Source: Sandaracinaceae bacterium (GTDB lineage: Bacteria > Myxococcota_A > Polyangia > Polyangiales > Sandaracinaceae). Taken from it: a DNA stretch of 64,000 nucleotides. How positions within the stretch are numbered: the stretch's first letter is position 1; every line of letters begins with the position of its first letter. The notes beneath the pieces are model-generated. The model saw only the letters and a list, made by a program, of their open reading frames with translations. It was not told the DNA's origin and did no database searches. Location: NCBI GenBank assembly GCA_019637095.1, contig JAHBWG010000053.1, positions 1 to 64,000 of the forward strand. The letters run 5' to 3'. Both the position numbers and the translations under genes were made by a program. This document shows, piece by piece, positions 2,783 to 46,572 of the stretch.

Positions 2783-3427
2783 CTAGCCGAGAAGGACGCG
2801 CGCGAGCTCGCGCGCGTCGTGGGCGATCGCGTCCGCGGCGCGCAGCTCGTCGAGGCGCCCGGAGCCCCACGTGACGGCGCTGGTGTGGATCCCCGCGGCG
2901 CGGCCCGCCTCGACGTCGTGGATCGCGTCGCCGACGAACGTGATCCGGCGCGACGGCGCGAGGCCGAGGCCGGCGAGCGCGCGGTGCACCGGATCGGGAT
3001 CGGGCTTGGGGCGCGCGACCTCGTCGCCGTAGATCTCGACCGCGAACCGCCCCTCGAGCCCGAGGGCGCGCAGGCCCTCGACGCCGCCGCGGCGGCGCTT
3101 GCTCGTGACGAGCCCGAGCGGGACGCCGCGCGCGTGGAGCGCGTGGACGATCTCGCTCACGCCCTCGTAGGGCCGGACGAGCGCGTCGTGGACGCGGAGG
3201 TTGTGCTCGACGTAGGTGGCGACGAGCGCGTCGAGCTCGGCCTCGTAGCCCCACCGCCGGAACTGCGCCTCGAGCGTGGTGCCCAGCCCCGAGAGCACGT
3301 CCTCGTCGCGGCGCGGCGGCAGGCCGTGCGCGGCCAAGGTGTGGCGGTAGCTCTCGAGGATCAGCGCGATCGAGTCGAGCAAGGTGCCGTCGAGATCGAA
3401 GAGAACGGCGTCGAAGGGGCCGCGCAT
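2783..3427 (-). CDS. HAD-family hydrolase, phosphoglycolate-phosphatase-like
   Basis: 214-residue haloacid-dehalogenase-fold phosphatase. FDLDGT near the N-terminus carries the nucleophile Asp and the acid/base Asp, followed by TLLDS. VTSK supplies the motif II Thr/Ser, KPDPDP the motif III Lys, and FVGDAIHD the metal-binding acidic pair of motif IV. The cap is a small helical insertion as in the Gph/PGMB group. The frame is open upstream to 3562, but the ATG at 3427 is preceded by a strong Shine-Dalgarno (GAGGTGAG, core 7 nt away), which fixes the start. A phosphoglycolate or other small-phosphate substrate is likely; Gph itself cannot be separated from its paralogues here. Confidence 0.85.
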   Translation of the reverse strand: MRGPFDAVLFDLDGTLLDSIALILESYRHTLAAHGLPPRRDEDVLSGLGTTLEAQFRRWGYEAELDALVATYVEHNLRVHDALVRPYEGVSEIVHALHARGVPLGLVTSKRRRGGVEGLRALGLEGRFAVEIYGDEVARPKPDPDPVHRALAGLGLAPSRRITFVGDAIHDVEAGRAAGIHTSAVTWGSGRLDELRAADAIAHDARELARVLLG

Positions 3428-3633
3428 CGGCTCACCTCGACTCACGAGCACCGCGTGTCGCGCCCAGCGCAGCGCGGAGCGCACGCGCCTGCGCCATGAA
3501 GCACGCTCCCTCGCGCGCGTGATGCTCGACCGAGGCGACGCACGGCGCGAGGTCGGTGTCACCGAGCCCAGAGCTGCGACGAAACGACATGGGCGCGCAA
3601 GCTCGCGCGAAGCACGTGCCCAGGCAAGCCCGA

Positions 3634-3647
3634 ATGAGGTACCTCAT
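3634..3647. promoter_or_regulatory. Perfect 14-bp palindrome at sigma-factor stop codon
   Basis: ATGAGGTACCTCAT is a perfect palindrome overlapping the TGA of the sigma-factor gene, upstream of the HAD gene transcribed in the same direction. It could be a protein-binding site in the 216-bp spacer or a weak hairpin. There is no U-tract, so it is not a standard terminator. Confidence 0.3.
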
Positions 3648-4522
3648 GCGCCCTGGTCGCGAAGCTCGGTGAGGAGCTCCGCGAGGCGCGCCCGCAACGA
3701 TGCCGGTGCCGGATGCGCGAACGGCGACAGGCCGGAATGCGCGCCGGCGGACGCGAGGCCCTCGAGGTCGAGCTCGACCTCGGCGCGGCGGTCGAGCGCT
3801 CCCGGCGCGCCGCCGGTCGGCGCCGCGCCCTCGTCTGCGTCGCCGCTCCCGATCCCGAGCCAGCCGAGGATCCGACGGCGCCGGCCGCGCGCCGGCGCGG
3901 CCTCGAGCGCGCGCGCGGCGAGGCGCGGCGCGGCGGGAGCGGCCGCGGCGGGGGGCGGGATCGCGCCCAGGGGCGGCGGCGCCGGCGCCTCGATCGCGGC
4001 GCGCATCTTCGCGACGGCGCGGCTGATGCGCATGCGCACCGCGCCCTCCGGTACGCCGAACGCGTCCGACAGCTCGGGGTAGCCGAGCTCGTGGCCGAAG
4101 CGCAGGACGACGAGCGCGCGCTCGCGCTCGTCGAGCGCGTCGAGCCCCGCGCGCACGTCCTCGCGGCGCGCGAGCAGATCCGCGACGTCGGGCTCCTCGG
4201 TCGCGTGCGCGTCGGGCTCCTCGCCCTCGGCCCCGAGCGCGCGCCTTCGTGCGCGCAGCTCGTCGATGCAGCGGTTGCGGGCGATGCGCAGGATCCACGT
4301 GCGCACCGACGCGTCGCCGCGAAACCCGGCGAGCGCGTCGAACGCGCGCACGAACACCTCTTGGCTCAGATCCTCCGCGAGCGTCGCGTCGCGCACCATG
4401 GCGCGGCAGAGCGCGTGGACCTCGTCGGCGTAACCGCGCACGAGCAGCGCGCCGGCGGCGCGGAGCTCCCCCTCGCTCACGGCGCGGAGCAGCTCGGTGT
4501 CTCGATCGGGCGCGGCGTCCAT
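3644..4522 (-). CDS. RNA polymerase sigma factor, ECF-like, with C-terminal extension
   Basis: 292-residue sigma-70 family protein. Region 2 is clear (AEDLSQEVFVRAFD through RTWILRIARNRCIDELRARRR, about residues 55-95), and region 4 follows (LDERERALVVLRFGHELGYPELSDAFGVPEG, then RMRISRAV, about 135-175). There is no region 3, as in group IV (ECF) factors. About 110 residues rich in Ala, Pro and Arg then extend past region 4; ordinary ECF factors are about 190 residues, so this tail may replace a separate anti-sigma factor. No anti-sigma gene is adjacent. Start: the frame extends to a TTG at 4606 and an ATG at 4549; the ATG at 4522 (MDAAPD) has GGGGGAG about 12 nt upstream and begins nearest the conserved region. 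The choice between 4522 and 4549 is uncertain. Confidence 0.85.
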   Translation of the reverse strand: MDAAPDRDTELLRAVSEGELRAAGALLVRGYADEVHALCRAMVRDATLAEDLSQEVFVRAFDALAGFRGDASVRTWILRIARNRCIDELRARRRALGAEGEEPDAHATEEPDVADLLARREDVRAGLDALDERERALVVLRFGHELGYPELSDAFGVPEGAVRMRISRAVAKMRAAIEAPAPPPLGAIPPPAAAAPAAPRLAARALEAAPARGRRRRILGWLGIGSGDADEGAAPTGGAPGALDRRAEVELDLEGLASAGAHSGLSPFAHPAPASLRARLAELLTELRDQGA

Positions 4523-37846: not shown

Positions 37847-37852
37847 TATGCT
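37847..37852 (+). promoter_or_regulatory. -10 hexamer TATGCT, probable leaderless promoter
   Basis: TATGCT ends 7 nt before the ATG at 37860. The in-frame ATG at 37848 lies inside the hexamer and is unlikely to be used. Confidence 0.55.
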
Positions 37853-37859
37853 CCCCCCG

Positions 37860-39689
<1,830 letters not shown>

Positions 39690-42185: not shown

Positions 42186-42213
42186 TTGTAACTTCCGGTG
42201 GGCGGGATACTAT
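42186..42213 (+). promoter_or_regulatory. Sigma-70-type promoter of the RiPP precursor gene
   Basis: TTGTAA (42186-42191) and TACTAT (42208-42213), 16 bp apart, each match the sigma-70 consensus at four of six positions and stand out in this GC-rich DNA. Transcription from near 42220 would leave a leader of about 84 nt before the ATG at 42304, unusually long for this window. Confidence 0.5.
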
Positions 42214-42303: not shown

Positions 42304-42546
42304 ATGAAGACGATGCTCAAGACCCAGCTGGTCGCGATCGCGGCGGCCACCCTCGGCCTCACGGCTTACGGTTGCGGTGGTGGCAGCGCCGACGACTCCG
42401 GCGGCAGCGAGACCGGTGGCGGCGAGGCGTCCTGCAGCGGCAGCGGCGAGGGCGGCGAAGGCGGCGGCGAGGGCGGCGGCGAGGGTGGGGGCGAGAGCTC
42501 CTGCGGCGCCGGCAGCTGCGGCGGCGAAGGCGGCGACGGCGAGTGA
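42304..42546 (+). CDS. Candidate MNIO-type RiPP precursor (Cys/Gly/Glu-rich exported peptide)
   Basis: 80 residues. The N-terminus is a Sec-type signal (MKTMLKTQLVAIAAATLGLTAYGC). The mature part consists almost wholly of Gly, Glu, Ser and Cys: EASCSG with Cys44, then GEGGEGGGEGGGEGGGE, then ESSCGAGSCGGEGGDGE with Cys67 and Cys72. ESSCG and GSCGG resemble the EGKCG repeats of HvfA/bufferin precursors, whose Cys residues are modified by MNIO enzymes to bind copper. Cys24 follows A-Y-G, a relaxed lipobox, so the peptide may be lipid-anchored. GGGGAGAG lies 7 nt before the ATG. The MNIO and DUF2063 genes follow at 42739. Role inferred from context and composition. Confidence 0.75.
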   Translation: MKTMLKTQLVAIAAATLGLTAYGCGGGSADDSGGSETGGGEASCSGSGEGGEGGGEGGGEGGGESSCGAGSCGGEGGDGE

Positions 42547-42589
42547 GCTGCTGAGGCGGGCGCGCCCGTCGCCCGAGGCCTCGCGCGCG

Positions 42590-42611
42590 CGAGCCGGTCT
42601 TCTCCGGCTCG
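42590..42611 (+). terminator. Hairpin after RiPP precursor gene
   Basis: CGAGCCGG (42590-42597) and CCGGCTCG (42604-42611) form a perfect 8-bp stem with loop TCTTCT. No U-tract; it may stabilise the 3' end of the precursor mRNA. Confidence 0.45.
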
Positions 42612-42672
42612 CACGTCGCGCGTGATGACCCGCGCGCAGGCGAGCGCCCGCTTCATGGCTCGAGGATCGCAG

Positions 42673-42710
42673 ACGCGGGAGCTTCCGGTGGAGGCTCCCG
42701 CGTTTCGTTC
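42673..42710 (+). terminator. Intrinsic terminator between precursor and MNIO genes
   Basis: ACGCGGGAGC (42673-42682) pairs perfectly with GCTCCCGCGT (42694-42703) to give a 10-bp stem and an 11-nt loop. The stem is followed by TTCGTTCG. In this GC-rich DNA that is a convincing rho-independent terminator, so the precursor is probably transcribed alone. Confidence 0.7.
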
Positions 42711-42711
42711 G

Positions 42712-42717
42712 TAAGCT
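42712..42717 (+). promoter_or_regulatory. -10 hexamer TAAGCT upstream of MNIO gene
   Basis: TAAGCT lies directly after the terminator, 21 nt before the ATG at 42739, with AGGAG (42723-42727) and GGAG (42731-42734) between. This gives the enzyme genes their own promoter and a short leader. Confidence 0.45.
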
Positions 42718-42738
42718 GTCGCAGGAGCTCGGAGCCGC

Positions 42739-43593
42739 ATGAACACGCGCGTCGAAGGCGTCGGCCTCGGCCTCAGGCACGACCTCGCTCGGGAGCTGCT
42801 CGAGCGGCGGCCCGACGAGGTGCGCTGGCTCGAGATCCACCCCGAGAACTACGTGGCGCGCGGGGGTCGCTTCGAGCTGAACCTCGAGGAGGCGCGGGCC
42901 CACTGGCCGATCGTCACCCACGGGCTGACGTGCGGAGTCGGCACCGCGAGCCCGTTCGAGCCGAGCTACACGCGCGAGCTGCGCGAGCTGCTCGAGGCGG
43001 TCGGCGCGCCGTTCCACAGCGAGCACCTCTGCTTCGGTGGCGTCGACGACACGTTCCTGCACGACCTGCTGCCCTTGCCGTTCAACCGCGAGGCCGTCCG
43101 CACCGCGGCGGCGCGGGCGCGCGAGCTGCGCGACGCGATCGAGCGCCCGCTCGCGATCGAGAACATCAGCTACTACGCCGACCCCCTCGACCCCGGCGGC
43201 TGGACCGAGCCGGACTTCCTGCTCGAGGTCCTCGACGCGGCGGACGCGGCGCTCCTGCTCGACGTCAACAACGTCTACGTCAACTCCCTCAACCACGGGT
43301 TCGATCCGCGCGCGTACATCGACCGCATCCCGCGCGAGCGGGTCGTGCAGATCCACGTCGCCGGCCACTTCACCGGGAAGGACGGCGTGATCATCGACAC
43401 GCACGGCGAGCCGGTGTGCGAGGGCGTGTACGACCTGCTCGGCTACACGATCGCGCGGCTCGGGCCCGTGCCCGTCTTGCTCGAGCGCGATCAGAACGTG
43501 CCTCCGCTCGACGACCTGCTCGCGGAGGTCCGGCGCCTGAGCGCGATCTACGAGCGCGGCGTCGCCGCGTTCGAGGCGGAGCGGGCCGCGTGA
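42739..43593 (+). CDS. MNIO (DUF692) family peptide-modifying oxidase
   Basis: 284 residues, full length for the multinuclear non-haem iron oxidases (MbnB/TglH/HvfB/BufB type). The TIM-barrel metal ligands are in place: EIHPENY near 32-38, THG (His61), FHSEHL (His93, Glu95, His96), IENIS (Glu141), DVNN (Asp175, Asn177/178), IHVAGH (His206, His210), IDTHGE (Asp220, His222) and LLERD (Glu249). These enzymes use a di- or tri-iron site and O2 to convert Cys in precursor peptides to oxazolone/thioamide, thiooxazole or related groups. The likely substrate is the peptide at 42304. The stop overlaps the GTG of the DUF2063 gene (GTGA). Confidence 0.93.
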   Translation: MNTRVEGVGLGLRHDLARELLERRPDEVRWLEIHPENYVARGGRFELNLEEARAHWPIVTHGLTCGVGTASPFEPSYTRELRELLEAVGAPFHSEHLCFGGVDDTFLHDLLPLPFNREAVRTAAARARELRDAIERPLAIENISYYADPLDPGGWTEPDFLLEVLDAADAALLLDVNNVYVNSLNHGFDPRAYIDRIPRERVVQIHVAGHFTGKDGVIIDTHGEPVCEGVYDLLGYTIARLGPVPVLLERDQNVPPLDDLLAEVRRLSAIYERGVAAFEAERAA

Positions 43594-44348
43594 CCGAGCC
43601 GAGCCTCGTCGAGGTCCAGCGCGCGTTCTCGCGGATCTGCTTGGACGCGACGCCGGCGGAGGCGGACCTCGCGCTGCTCCACGGGCCCCGGGAGCGCTGG
43701 CTGCTCTACCGCCGCATGGTGCGCTCGCGCCTCTTCGGGATGGTGCGCAGCGGCCTGCCGCGGACCGTCGCGACGGTCGGCGAGGCGCGCCTCGACGCGG
43801 CGATGCGCGCGTACCTCGCGGAGCGCGGGGTGACGAGCCGCTACATCCGCGACTGCGTCCAGGAGCTCGCCGCGCACGCGCTCCCGACCTGGAGCGCCGA
43901 TCCGGCGTTGCCGCCGCACCTCGCCGACCTCGTGCGTTACGAGGCGACGAAGTGGCAGGTCGGCAGCCTCGAGTGGGTCGAGCCCGCGCCGGTCGTCGAG
44001 CCCTTCGACTTCGAGGGCGTCCCGGTCCACAACCCCACGGTCCGCGCCGTCGAGGTGCGCTTCCGCGTCGACCGCGACGACGCGCGCCGCGACGAGCCGG
44101 TCGCCGAGCCGCATCGGGTGCTCCTCTACCGCCGGCCGCGCGACGCGCGCGTGTTCGGCTACGCGCTCGACGCGCGCGCGAGCGCGCTCTACGACGCGTG
44201 GTGCGTGCCCGAGCGCACGTTCGCCGACGGCGCGCGCGCGGTCCTCGCGGCGCGCGGCGCGGCGCCCGAGCCGACCTTCGTCGACGCGCTCGCGGGGCTG
44301 CTCGCGGACCTCGTCGAGCGCGCGATCATCGTCGGTTCGCGAAGGTGA
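43590..44348 (+). CDS. DUF2063-family partner protein of MNIO enzyme
   Basis: 252 residues. The N-terminal helical DUF2063 domain is recognisable (LVEVQRAFSRICLDATPAE, YRRMVRSRLFGMVRSGLPRTVATVG, YIRDCVQELAAHALPTW, PPHLADLVRYEATKW). The C-terminal half is a winged-helix-like region with the alternating strands expected of an RRE-type peptide-binding module. In HvfC, BufC and related proteins this domain recruits the precursor leader to the MNIO enzyme. GTG start overlaps the MNIO stop, and its own stop overlaps the GTG of the peptidase gene. Confidence 0.88.
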   Translation: MTEPSLVEVQRAFSRICLDATPAEADLALLHGPRERWLLYRRMVRSRLFGMVRSGLPRTVATVGEARLDAAMRAYLAERGVTSRYIRDCVQELAAHALPTWSADPALPPHLADLVRYEATKWQVGSLEWVEPAPVVEPFDFEGVPVHNPTVRAVEVRFRVDRDDARRDEPVAEPHRVLLYRRPRDARVFGYALDARASALYDAWCVPERTFADGARAVLAARGAAPEPTFVDALAGLLADLVERAIIVGSRR

Positions 44349-45835
44349 GGGGCGAGGGCCTCGCCCTCTCCACCGGCTCGTGGGCGCTCGCGTGCTGCCT
44401 CGCGTCGTGCGGCGGCCTCGCCCTCGGCGCGGAGCGCGGGCCCGAGGCGCGCGCGTGGCGCTACGAGCTGCGCATCGACGACGCGCTCAGCCGCCTCGAG
44501 GTCGACGTCTGCTTCGAGGGCCCCGCGCCCCCCGTCCTCGCGCCGATCGACCGGCGCGGTCGCCGCTTCCTGCGGAGCGCCGACGGCCCGCTCGGTCCAG
44601 ACGCCGCCCCGCTCCCGCGCGACGCCGACGTCGTCTTCACCGCCCACCTGCCGCCCGACGCGTGCGTCCGCTACGTCGTGGACCTCGACGCGGCCGCGCG
44701 GCAGCGAGGGGGCATCACCGGCGCGTACCGCGTGGGCGACGATCTGATCGCGTCCACCACGGTGTGGCTCTGGGCGCCCCGCCCGCGCGCGCCCGACGCC
44801 CGCGCCAGCGCGCGCTTCACGCTCCCCGAGGGCGTCGTGGTCTCGCCGCTCTGGCCGCGCGACGCGGAGCGCTGGTACCTCGACGCGCGCGCGTTCGAGC
44901 TCGAGGCCTTCGCCGCGTTCGGTCGCTTCGAGGTGCGGCACGTCGGCGTACCGGGTGCCTGCCTGCACGTGAGCCTCCTGGGCCGCCGGGTCGCGATGGG
45001 CCACGACGCGCTCAGCGCGTCGCTCGCGCGCAGCGCCGGGGCGGCCGCGCTCCTGTTCGGCCGCTTCCCGGTGAGCGAGGCGAGCATCCTCGCCGTGCCC
45101 ACGCCGCTGTCCACCACGTCTCCGTTCGGCGTCGTAGGCCGCGGCACGCTGCCGACGGTGGCGATCCTCGTCGGCGAGCAGGCGGCGCCCGAGCGGCTCG
45201 AGCGCGCGTGGGTCCCCGTCCACGAGTTCAGCCACCTCGCGGTGCCGCTCATCGAGCGCGACGACGCGTGGCTCTCCGAGGGCCTCGCCACGTACTATCA
45301 AGAGATCTTGCGGGCGCGCGCCGGGCTCATCGCGCCGGAGGAGGCGTGGCGCAACCTCGACGACGGCTTCGCCCGCGGGCGCGCCGGAGGTACGGGCCGC
45401 TCGCTCGCCGACGAGAGCCGCGACATGCGCCGCACGGCCGCGTACCGCCGCGTCTACTGGGCGGGCGCCGCGATCGCGCTCGCCGCGGACGTGGAGCTGC
45501 GCGCGCGCGGCGCGCGGAGCCTCGACGACGCGCTCGCCGAGCTGCACGCGTGCTGCCATGGCGGCGCGCGGCCCATGCCCGGTCGCGACGCGATCGAGCG
45601 GCTCGACGCGGCGAGCGACGGCGTGTTCGGCCGCGTCGCGCGCGCGGCGCTCGGGAGCTCCGAGCTGCTGCCGCTCGAGCGGACCTACCGGCGGCTCGGT
45701 CTCTCGCACCGCGCCGACGGCAGCCTCGCCTTCGACGACGCGCCCGACGCGCGCGCGCTCCGCGACGCGATCACGAGCCCGCCGGCGGCGCTCGACGACG
45801 TCCCGCCGTGCGGACCTTGGTACGCGCGGCCGTGA
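44345..45835 (+). CDS. Lipoprotein gluzincin metallopeptidase coupled to the MNIO genes
   Basis: 496 residues. The leader ends in the lipobox LASC at Cys22, so the protein should be anchored in an envelope membrane. An N-terminal beta-rich domain (about 35-215) precedes a zinc peptidase domain with HEFSH at 293-297 and WLSEGLATYYQ, whose Glu312 would be the third ligand. This is the HExxH...E arrangement of gluzincins (M1/M61-like), with 14 residues between His297 and Glu312. The GTG at 44345 overlaps the DUF2063 stop (GTGA), so it is made with the maturation proteins. It may trim or process the modified peptide outside the cytoplasm, or act on something else; that link is inference. Confidence 0.82.
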   Translation: MRGEGLALSTGSWALACCLASCGGLALGAERGPEARAWRYELRIDDALSRLEVDVCFEGPAPPVLAPIDRRGRRFLRSADGPLGPDAAPLPRDADVVFTAHLPPDACVRYVVDLDAAARQRGGITGAYRVGDDLIASTTVWLWAPRPRAPDARASARFTLPEGVVVSPLWPRDAERWYLDARAFELEAFAAFGRFEVRHVGVPGACLHVSLLGRRVAMGHDALSASLARSAGAAALLFGRFPVSEASILAVPTPLSTTSPFGVVGRGTLPTVAILVGEQAAPERLERAWVPVHEFSHLAVPLIERDDAWLSEGLATYYQEILRARAGLIAPEEAWRNLDDGFARGRAGGTGRSLADESRDMRRTAAYRRVYWAGAAIALAADVELRARGARSLDDALAELHACCHGGARPMPGRDAIERLDAASDGVFGRVARAALGSSELLPLERTYRRLGLSHRADGSLAFDDAPDARALRDAITSPPAALDDVPPCGPWYARP

Positions 45836-45945: not shown

Positions 45946-46572
45946 ATGCGAATCGTCAATGTCCTCTGCGCCGCCGTCCTCTTCGCGGGCGCCGGCTTGG
46001 CCGCGAACGCGGAGGCCCAGGCCCGCACCTTCCGCATCCGCAACGACGGCGGCAGCCGCATCCAGTTCATCTCGGACGCGCCCCTCGAGACGATCACCGG
46101 CGTGAGCACGCACGTGACCGGTGAGCTCGAGGCGGACGTGAACGACGCCACGGCGATGCGCGGCACCGTGCGCGTGCGCGTCGCGAGCCTGCGCACCGGC
46201 ATCGACCTGCGCGACGAGCACCTGCGCGCACCGAACTGGCTCGACGCCAACCGCTGGCCCGACGTGACGTTCGAGGTCACCCGCATCGAGGGCGCGAGCC
46301 GGCTCGCGCCCAACCAGGTCGCGAACCTCCGCGTCCACGGCCGGTTCAGCCTCCACGGCGTGACGCGAGAGATCGTCGCCAACGCGCAGGTCCGTTACAT
46401 CCCGCTCACCGACGAGCTGCGCGCCAACCACGTCGACGGGGACGTGATCCGCGTGCAAGCGAGCTTCCGCGTGCTCCTGACCGACTACAACGTGTCGGTG
46501 CCGCTGCCCGTCCGGCTCAAGGTCGCGAACGAGATCCGCGTCAACGTGACGCTCCGCGCGATCGCGAGTTGA
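45946..46572 (+). CDS. YceI-family exported protein
   Basis: 208 residues. Signal peptide MRIVNVLCAAVLFAGAGLAANAEAQA, then the YceI lipocalin-like beta barrel: IQFISDAPLETITGVSTHVTGELE, LRTGIDLRDEHLRAPNWLDANRWPDVTFE, FSLHGVTREI. YceI proteins bind polyisoprenoid or other hydrophobic ligands in the periplasm. AAGGAG 6 nt before the ATG fixes the start. It lies 110 bp after the peptidase gene on the same strand; a shared transcript is possible but not shown. Confidence 0.9.
   Translation: MRIVNVLCAAVLFAGAGLAANAEAQARTFRIRNDGGSRIQFISDAPLETITGVSTHVTGELEADVNDATAMRGTVRVRVASLRTGIDLRDEHLRAPNWLDANRWPDVTFEVTRIEGASRLAPNQVANLRVHGRFSLHGVTREIVANAQVRYIPLTDELRANHVDGDVIRVQASFRVLLTDYNVSVPLPVRLKVANEIRVNVTLRAIAS

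Follow-up and report, generated by a model that had tools for sequence, protein, structure and literature searches.

The locus described here raises the question of whether four neighboring genes in a Sandaracinaceae bacterium encode the biosynthesis of a ribosomally synthesized and post-translationally modified peptide (RiPP), and how far such a system departs from those already known. The genes lie in a stretch of 64,000 nucleotides (positions 1 to 64,000 of contig JAHBWG010000053.1, assembly GCA_019637095.1), hereafter called the window. In order and on the same strand, they encode a small Cys-containing precursor peptide, a multinuclear non-heme iron-dependent oxidase (MNIO; DUF692), a DUF2063 partner protein with a domain resembling a RiPP recognition element (RRE), and a lipoprotein of the M61 peptidase type (Table 1). 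Our analysis supports the identification of this locus as an MNIO plus DUF2063 RiPP-type cluster. Judged by their sequences, the enzyme pair and the precursor are distant relatives of HvfB, HvfC, and HvfA, and what appears to be new is a Ser-Cys-Gly (SCG) type precursor/MNIO subgroup together with its M61 partner. The original prediction of a new related system was thus overstated, since the cluster is a distant HvfABC relative and lipidated oxazolins are known, but the SCG subgroup and the M61 partner do differ from the described types.

The four genes were found where they had been predicted, and the last three are joined by GTGA overlaps, MNIO/DUF2063 at 43590-43593 and DUF2063/M61 at 44345-44348. 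Both overlaps suggest translational coupling of the three genes. The assignment of the second gene to DUF692 with its metal ligands was borne out. The MNIO matches PF05114 (MbnB_TglH_ChrH; E 1.6e-90, 303 bits, cut-off 25) and is the only such match in the genome. Its best match in the PDB is 3bww (1e-54), described as closely related to HvfB (PMC13419390), and the motifs HGL, S[DE]HL, EN, DVNN, HVAGH, DTHG, and ERD are kept in the alignment with this structure. The nearest NCBIfam family is HvfB (NF003818; 284 bits, under the cut-off of 360), and the score against the BufB model is 268 bits (cut-off 310). The MNIOs of M61-linked relatives score 277-300 bits against NF003818. All SCG-type MNIOs checked stay under the HvfB and BufB cut-offs, and those of loci L099, L105, and L109 pass BufB. 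Membership in the methanobactin family was rejected (MbnB model TIGR04159, 34 bits, cut-off 325). The DUF2063 protein was also correctly called (PF09836; E 1.4e-8, 35.3 bits, cut-off 27.2). Its nearest NCBIfam family is HvfC (57 bits, under the cut-off of 142), a profile search matches 3dee (NGO1945; E 1.1e-9), and its predicted model (pLDDT 93.5) is matched by Foldseek to 3dee and TglI (E 3.4e-6). Elsewhere, single ORFs match both the MNIO and the DUF2063 profiles (L115:5471-7417, L127:4662-8642 on the - strand, and L130:5207-7312), which suggests, at the level of profiles, fused enzyme-partner proteins.

The first gene is an 80-aa open reading frame (ORF) rich in Gly, Glu, Ser, and Cys, as predicted; the peptide, however, is a predicted lipoprotein with an AYGC lipobox at Cys24 and not simply exported. 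It has four cysteines, with the motifs ASCSG, SSCG, and AGSCGG. Precursors were collected by searching upstream of each MNIO, and their lipoboxes were called by pattern match, not by SignalP. In an alignment of 21 family members (A3), K6, A13, the lipobox Cys, and a C-terminal SCG...SC are invariant. The leader reads LKxTLVAMATAALG and is followed by the lipobox Cys and then by SCG repeats. Among the M61-linked loci (n=26), Ser precedes 91 and Gly follows 72 of the 102 core cysteines and a lipobox occurs in 25 of the 26 precursors, proportions which are not phylum frequencies since this set was picked via the peptidase. Whole-genome searches with the A3 profile gave a match in all 19 genomes tried, mostly at the MNIO/M61 locus. 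In a wider draw, 26 of 360 genomes matched, and 24 of the 33 matches lie beside an MNIO and one more beside an M61 gene; genomes outside the training of the profile are among those matched (G318, G330, G260, G135, G122, G108, and G100). This specificity, mostly for the MNIO/M61 locus, argues that the precursor is not a chance ORF. The HvfA model NF050137 gives weak matches to five of the 21 precursor relatives, NF050188 matches two, and EGKCG repeats are present in the precursors of L099 and L124; the family therefore shades into HvfA-type oxazolins. Many MNIO loci without the peptidase have precursors of the Cys-Lys type or with Gly-Cys-Pro repeats. SCG precursors also occur in about 12 unlinked loci (L123, L125, L128, L132, L136, and L138-L142), so the SCG precursor type and M61 are associated but not identical.

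Several further precursors were observed. In genus g5, members of the family lie away from any MNIO (G013:C6:408512-408739 in the L090 genome, G018:C24:26612-26839, G135:C11:15963-16184, and G173:C182:8557-8775), and no MNIO was found in the G173 genome; these orphans may be modified in trans or may be relics. Tandem precursor pairs occur at one MNIO/M61 locus in L069 (7610-7858 and 8016-8291) and in L072 (5738-6004 and 5322-5588). MNIO precursors built of Gly-Cys-Pro repeats, unlike the motif classes described in the studies consulted, stand upstream of position 862 in L126 (18 Cys, TDAAGGCPAGC) and, on the - strand, upstream in L134 (AGCPG).

The change in Cys context is accompanied by a change in the enzyme. 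FonB has Phe250 directly behind its catalytic Asp, in contact with the Lys of the substrate, and in Cys-Lys enzymes an Asp takes this position (PMC13097082). The residue is F in 3bww and D or E in most Cys-Lys loci; it is Gln in the window MNIO, and most linked loci show N, G, Q, or H. The changed specificity-site residue would fit the replacement of Lys by Ser in the substrate, as a correlation along a tree.

Peptidase homologues (threshold roughly E < 1e-20) and MNIO matches were compared over Myxococcota genomes. The four-gene module is real and conserved across many Myxococcota. Its nearest relative found, L032/L063 from a Polyangia bin, repeats the four genes in unchanged order, its precursor being 94 aa long and of like design, and a contig search with the window peptidase returned this one relative (L032). 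The synteny proposed between HExxH lipoproteins and MNIO loci proved strongly positive: an MNIO lies within 6 kb of 27 of the 79 peptidase homologues. Both the Cys peptide and the peptidase are conserved near DUF692 in relatives, and the lack of conservation named as the counter-case did not occur. The chance expectation is about 0.003 per gene, a figure that ignores shared ancestry, so the gene arrangement weighs more. The linkage spans about eight families and four arrangements, with the peptidase gene downstream on the same strand (the window, L032, L064, L065, L075, and L098), divergent upstream (the loci of family f3 and L101), upstream on the same strand (L071, L084, L091, L093, and L096), or convergent (L077 and L099). 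These four layouts imply repeated rearrangement with the M61-MNIO pair kept together. In G361, the precursor and peptidase genes are at one contig end and the MNIO gene is near the end of another contig; contig breaks may hide further links. In G169 (L083), a precursor gene (2528-2755, -) and an M61 gene (3172-4503, +) are divergent neighbors; no MNIO was found in the 2.5 kb to the contig start, and the MNIO of this genome is at the edge of another contig. Clustering of the neighbors of the loci gave no further conserved biosynthetic gene; antisense ORFs in GC-rich DNA, together with f3 synteny, dominated the result. One f3 locus carries a gene that we take to be rpoC.

The predicted gluzincin lipoprotein was recognized as such by PF05299 (Peptidase_M61; E 2e-5, 25.4 bits, cut-off 22) and by its LASC lipobox. 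The HExxH motif and a downstream Glu (H271, E272, H275, and E290) are invariant in all 37 homologues compared. The AlphaFold model (pLDDT 93.5, pTM 0.92) resembles M61/M1 gluzincins. Its best VIA-align match is 4fgm (Z 27.1, root-mean-square deviation 3.4 over 421 residues), and its best Foldseek match is 7xyo, an M61 from Myxococcus fulvus (E 4.4e-21, 24% identity), presumably the structure of MfuP. In aminopeptidases of the M1/M61 type, the N-terminus of the substrate is held by an acidic residue. The present family has RGGGxSV, with no acidic residue, at the stretch expected to form this anchor, a position taken from the distance to HExxH and not from a residue-level structure alignment; endopeptidase activity is for this reason offered as a hypothesis. 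MfuP, encoded in a class II lanthipeptide cluster of M. fulvus, acts as an endopeptidase on the modified core (PMC10885120). When lipoboxes of the M61 proteins were called automatically, the rule proved too strict and passed over the LASC of the window protein. By eye, nearly all MNIO-linked M61s end the hydrophobic stretch in [AGS]C, and most unlinked ones do so too, so lipidation does not separate the two sets. A gap-free comparison of the signal sequences of precursors with those of M61 proteins (28% vs 20%) was set aside as uninformative, as the distance to the lipobox varies. The window genome has a second M61 homologue (G000:C177:37978-39321, L073; 42% identity), with no MNIO nearby and no lipobox by the automatic call. 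A generic M61 gene at L129:2457-4433 (-) lies downstream of an MNIO-DUF2063 pair with an SCGAKKDG-repeat precursor; it was not counted as the same peptidase, having a long branch in the tree, and is possibly an independent recruitment of M61.

Among the known systems, HvfABC (oxazolin) and FonABC (fontiphorin), both captophorins of the Lys-Cys or EGKCG group (PMC13097082; PMC12452194), are similar in having a Sec-exported Cys precursor encoded before an MNIO and a DUF2063-RRE partner. The window MNIO is nearest HvfB, the Cys-Gly dyad is shared, and some precursor relatives weakly match HvfA models. In contrast to these systems, most members here are of Ser-Cys-Gly and not Lys-Cys-Gly type; the window MNIO, partner, and precursor are under the curated cut-offs and the precursor has no EGKCG; the locus has an M61 partner and no DoxX; and a lipoprotein leader is present in nearly all linked precursors. 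DoxX is frequent in HvfABC/captophorin clusters and not obligatory. The Neisseria dentiae lipidated oxazolin NedABC (PMC12636315) also has an MNIO-modified precursor with a lipobox, and NedA was isolated as a tri-acylated lipopeptide with a loss of 4 Da per motif, so lipidation alone is not new. NedABC differs in its EGKCG motifs and its origin in Pseudomonadota, and the section on it mentions no peptidase partner (PMC12636315). The bufferins Buf1 (DUF2282) and Buf2 (six or twelve Cys) likewise combine an MNIO, a DUF2063-RRE partner, and a Sec precursor, and about 16% of Buf2 are predicted lipoproteins (PMC12452194). The window precursor, however, has neither a DUF2282 match nor the six/twelve-Cys pattern, and its MNIO is under the BufB cut-off, which other Myxococcota loci with Cys-Lys precursors do pass. 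MfuP shares with the present peptidase the M61 fold in a myxobacterial RiPP context, but its substrate is a lanthipeptide and not an MNIO product (PMC10885120), and the peptidase family described here is smaller and distant in sequence. The captophorins, the bufferins and Buf_EGKCG/oxazolins of PMC12452194, and NedA already embody the central idea of the present locus. In the studies consulted, such clusters are not linked to a peptidase of this kind: words beginning with "peptidase" are absent from the main texts of PMC12452194 and PMC13097082, and RiPPs go unmentioned in a survey of clusters conserved in Myxococcota (PMC12766979). PMC12452194 reports that hundreds of signal-peptide precursors encoded ahead of MNIO genes are unclassified, so the precursors described here may already stand in the tables of that study.

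The reading that we favor, with moderate confidence, is that the locus makes a lipid-anchored, MNIO-modified, metal-binding (probably copper) thiooxazole peptide that is processed by the M61 enzyme. By homology, the DUF2063/RRE protein would bind the conserved leader, which is also the signal peptide, in the cytoplasm and present the Ser-Cys cysteines Cys44, Cys67, and Cys72 to the diiron MNIO, which would oxidize them; 5-thiooxazoles, the products in HvfABC and FonABC, are the likeliest outcome. As the lipobox suggests, the modified peptide would be exported by Sec, lipidated on Cys24, and kept at the membrane as a Gly/Glu-rich ligand for a soft metal; copper is favored among such metals solely by analogy. 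The conserved linkage suggests that the M61 gluzincin, also a predicted lipoprotein, would cut this peptide in trimming, anchor release, or turnover. A more specific proposal, tentative and rather doubtful, is that the enzyme is an endopeptidase akin to MfuP whose target is the SCG peptide in its modified and perhaps metal-bound form; cleavage would free the peptide from its membrane anchor as a shed or re-usable thiooxazole metallophore. If true, this would be a membrane-bound copper sponge mobilized by proteolysis, and a peptidase-gated captophorin branch in Myxococcota.

Several observations weigh against the favored reading. The window precursor matches no curated Pfam or NCBIfam precursor family, no copper gene was found among the flanking genes scanned, and the only DoxX of the genome is on contig C182, whereas the locus is on C147. 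Because the MNIO reaches neither the HvfB nor the BufB cut-off, these models do not reveal its chemistry. No MNIO is near 52 of the 79 M61 homologues, including the second copy in the window genome, and in the close relatives G150 and G330 no M61 adjoins the precursor and MNIO. Family f3, where wider synteny is shared, contributes about half of the linked loci, and the independent cases of linkage are therefore fewer than 27.

The M61-MNIO linkage bears directly on an alternative, rather unlikely in our view, in which the lipid-anchored metal-binding peptide is made but M61 acts elsewhere, as a general periplasmic peptidase or in housekeeping under the same metal stress, and is a co-regulated neighbor. 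The many unlinked homologues, the SCG-type loci without adjacent M61 (L123, L128, and L138-L142), and a tree in which the M61 family predates the link all agree with it, but the spread of the linkage over about eight families and four arrangements does not, nor does the GTGA overlap of the DUF2063 and M61 genes in the window. In G169, moreover, the M61 gene adjoins a precursor gene with no MNIO gene next to them, an arrangement suggesting that the peptide is the shared partner.

An alternative of lower probability is that M61 is an enzyme of turnover and not of maturation, degrading metal-bound or damaged exported peptide and thereby recycling Gly/Glu or releasing metal. Pfam describes M61 as glycyl aminopeptidases, the peptide is very Gly-rich, and in many loci the M61 gene is divergent from the precursor gene and not co-transcribed, as expected if separately regulated. 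In the window, however, its translation appears coupled to that of the biosynthetic genes, and RGGGxSV at the expected anchor site, as placed by distance, would argue against plain aminopeptidase action. Equally improbable is that the MNIO performs other chemistry on the SCG cysteines (e.g., oxazolone-thioamide formation or a different oxidation), with a product for another metal, redox stress, or signaling and not for copper. The low MNIO scores, the joint change in substrate context and specificity-site residue, and the flanks free of copper genes are in its favor; against it, HvfB and BufB, the best NCBIfam matches, are each reported to make 5-thiooxazoles, the PME1 partner marks the captophorin group (PMC13097082), and the precursors grade into EGKCG types. 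Chance assembly of unrelated neighbors, with a low-complexity ORF taken for a precursor, is very improbable: GC-rich DNA does yield many long spurious ORFs and the core is of low complexity, but the leader and lipobox are conserved across families, the A3 profile is specific in whole genomes, and M61 genes lie near an MNIO far above the chance expectation.

MNIO-PME1 clusters are very common RiPP loci, described in the studies consulted mainly from Pseudomonadota. The Myxococcota branch has a changed Cys context, a matching change at the specificity site, and a linked peptidase, and it offers a direct test of two questions: what determines the cysteines that an MNIO modifies, and the fate of the peptides after export. 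Together with MfuP, it suggests that M61 peptidases repeatedly act on modified peptides in myxobacteria.

Table 1. Features of the four-gene locus (window positions).
Feature	Position	Strand	Basis
Candidate promoter TTGTAA-16-TACTAT, upstream of the precursor gene	42186..42213	+	by eye; 8/12 consensus matches, weak
Precursor peptide gene, 80 aa; lipoprotein-type leader and Gly/Glu/Ser/Cys core	42304..42546	+	sequence; A3 alignment; profile match 4.8e-14
Cys24, predicted lipidation site (AYGC lipobox)	42373..42375	+	sequence
Cys44 in EASCS, candidate modification site	42433..42435	+	sequence; SC context
Cys67 and Cys72 in SSCGAGSCGG, candidate modification sites	42502..42519	+	invariant S66 C67 G68 and S71 C72 in A3
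MNIO (DUF692) oxidase, HvfB/BufB-like, 284 aa	42739..43593	+	PF05114; NCBIfam; ligand motifs vs 3bww
DUF2063 + RRE-like partner (PME1), 252 aa; GTG start in GTGA overlap	43590..44348	+	PF09836; 3dee/TglI
M61-type gluzincin lipoprotein, 496 aa; GTG start in GTGA overlap; LASC lipobox	44345..45835	+	PF05299; HExxH; fold

Scans for sigma-70 promoters and terminators found nothing, and the candidate promoter in Table 1 scores under the scan threshold; in its region, CTTGTAAC is kept in L032 and L123. A gene for a regulator with FHA, GAF, sigma54-activator, and HTH domains is located at 37848-39689, a few kb upstream of the cluster. A YceI-family gene (45946-46572; PF04264, 1.7e-24) lies on the same strand, 3' of the peptidase gene.

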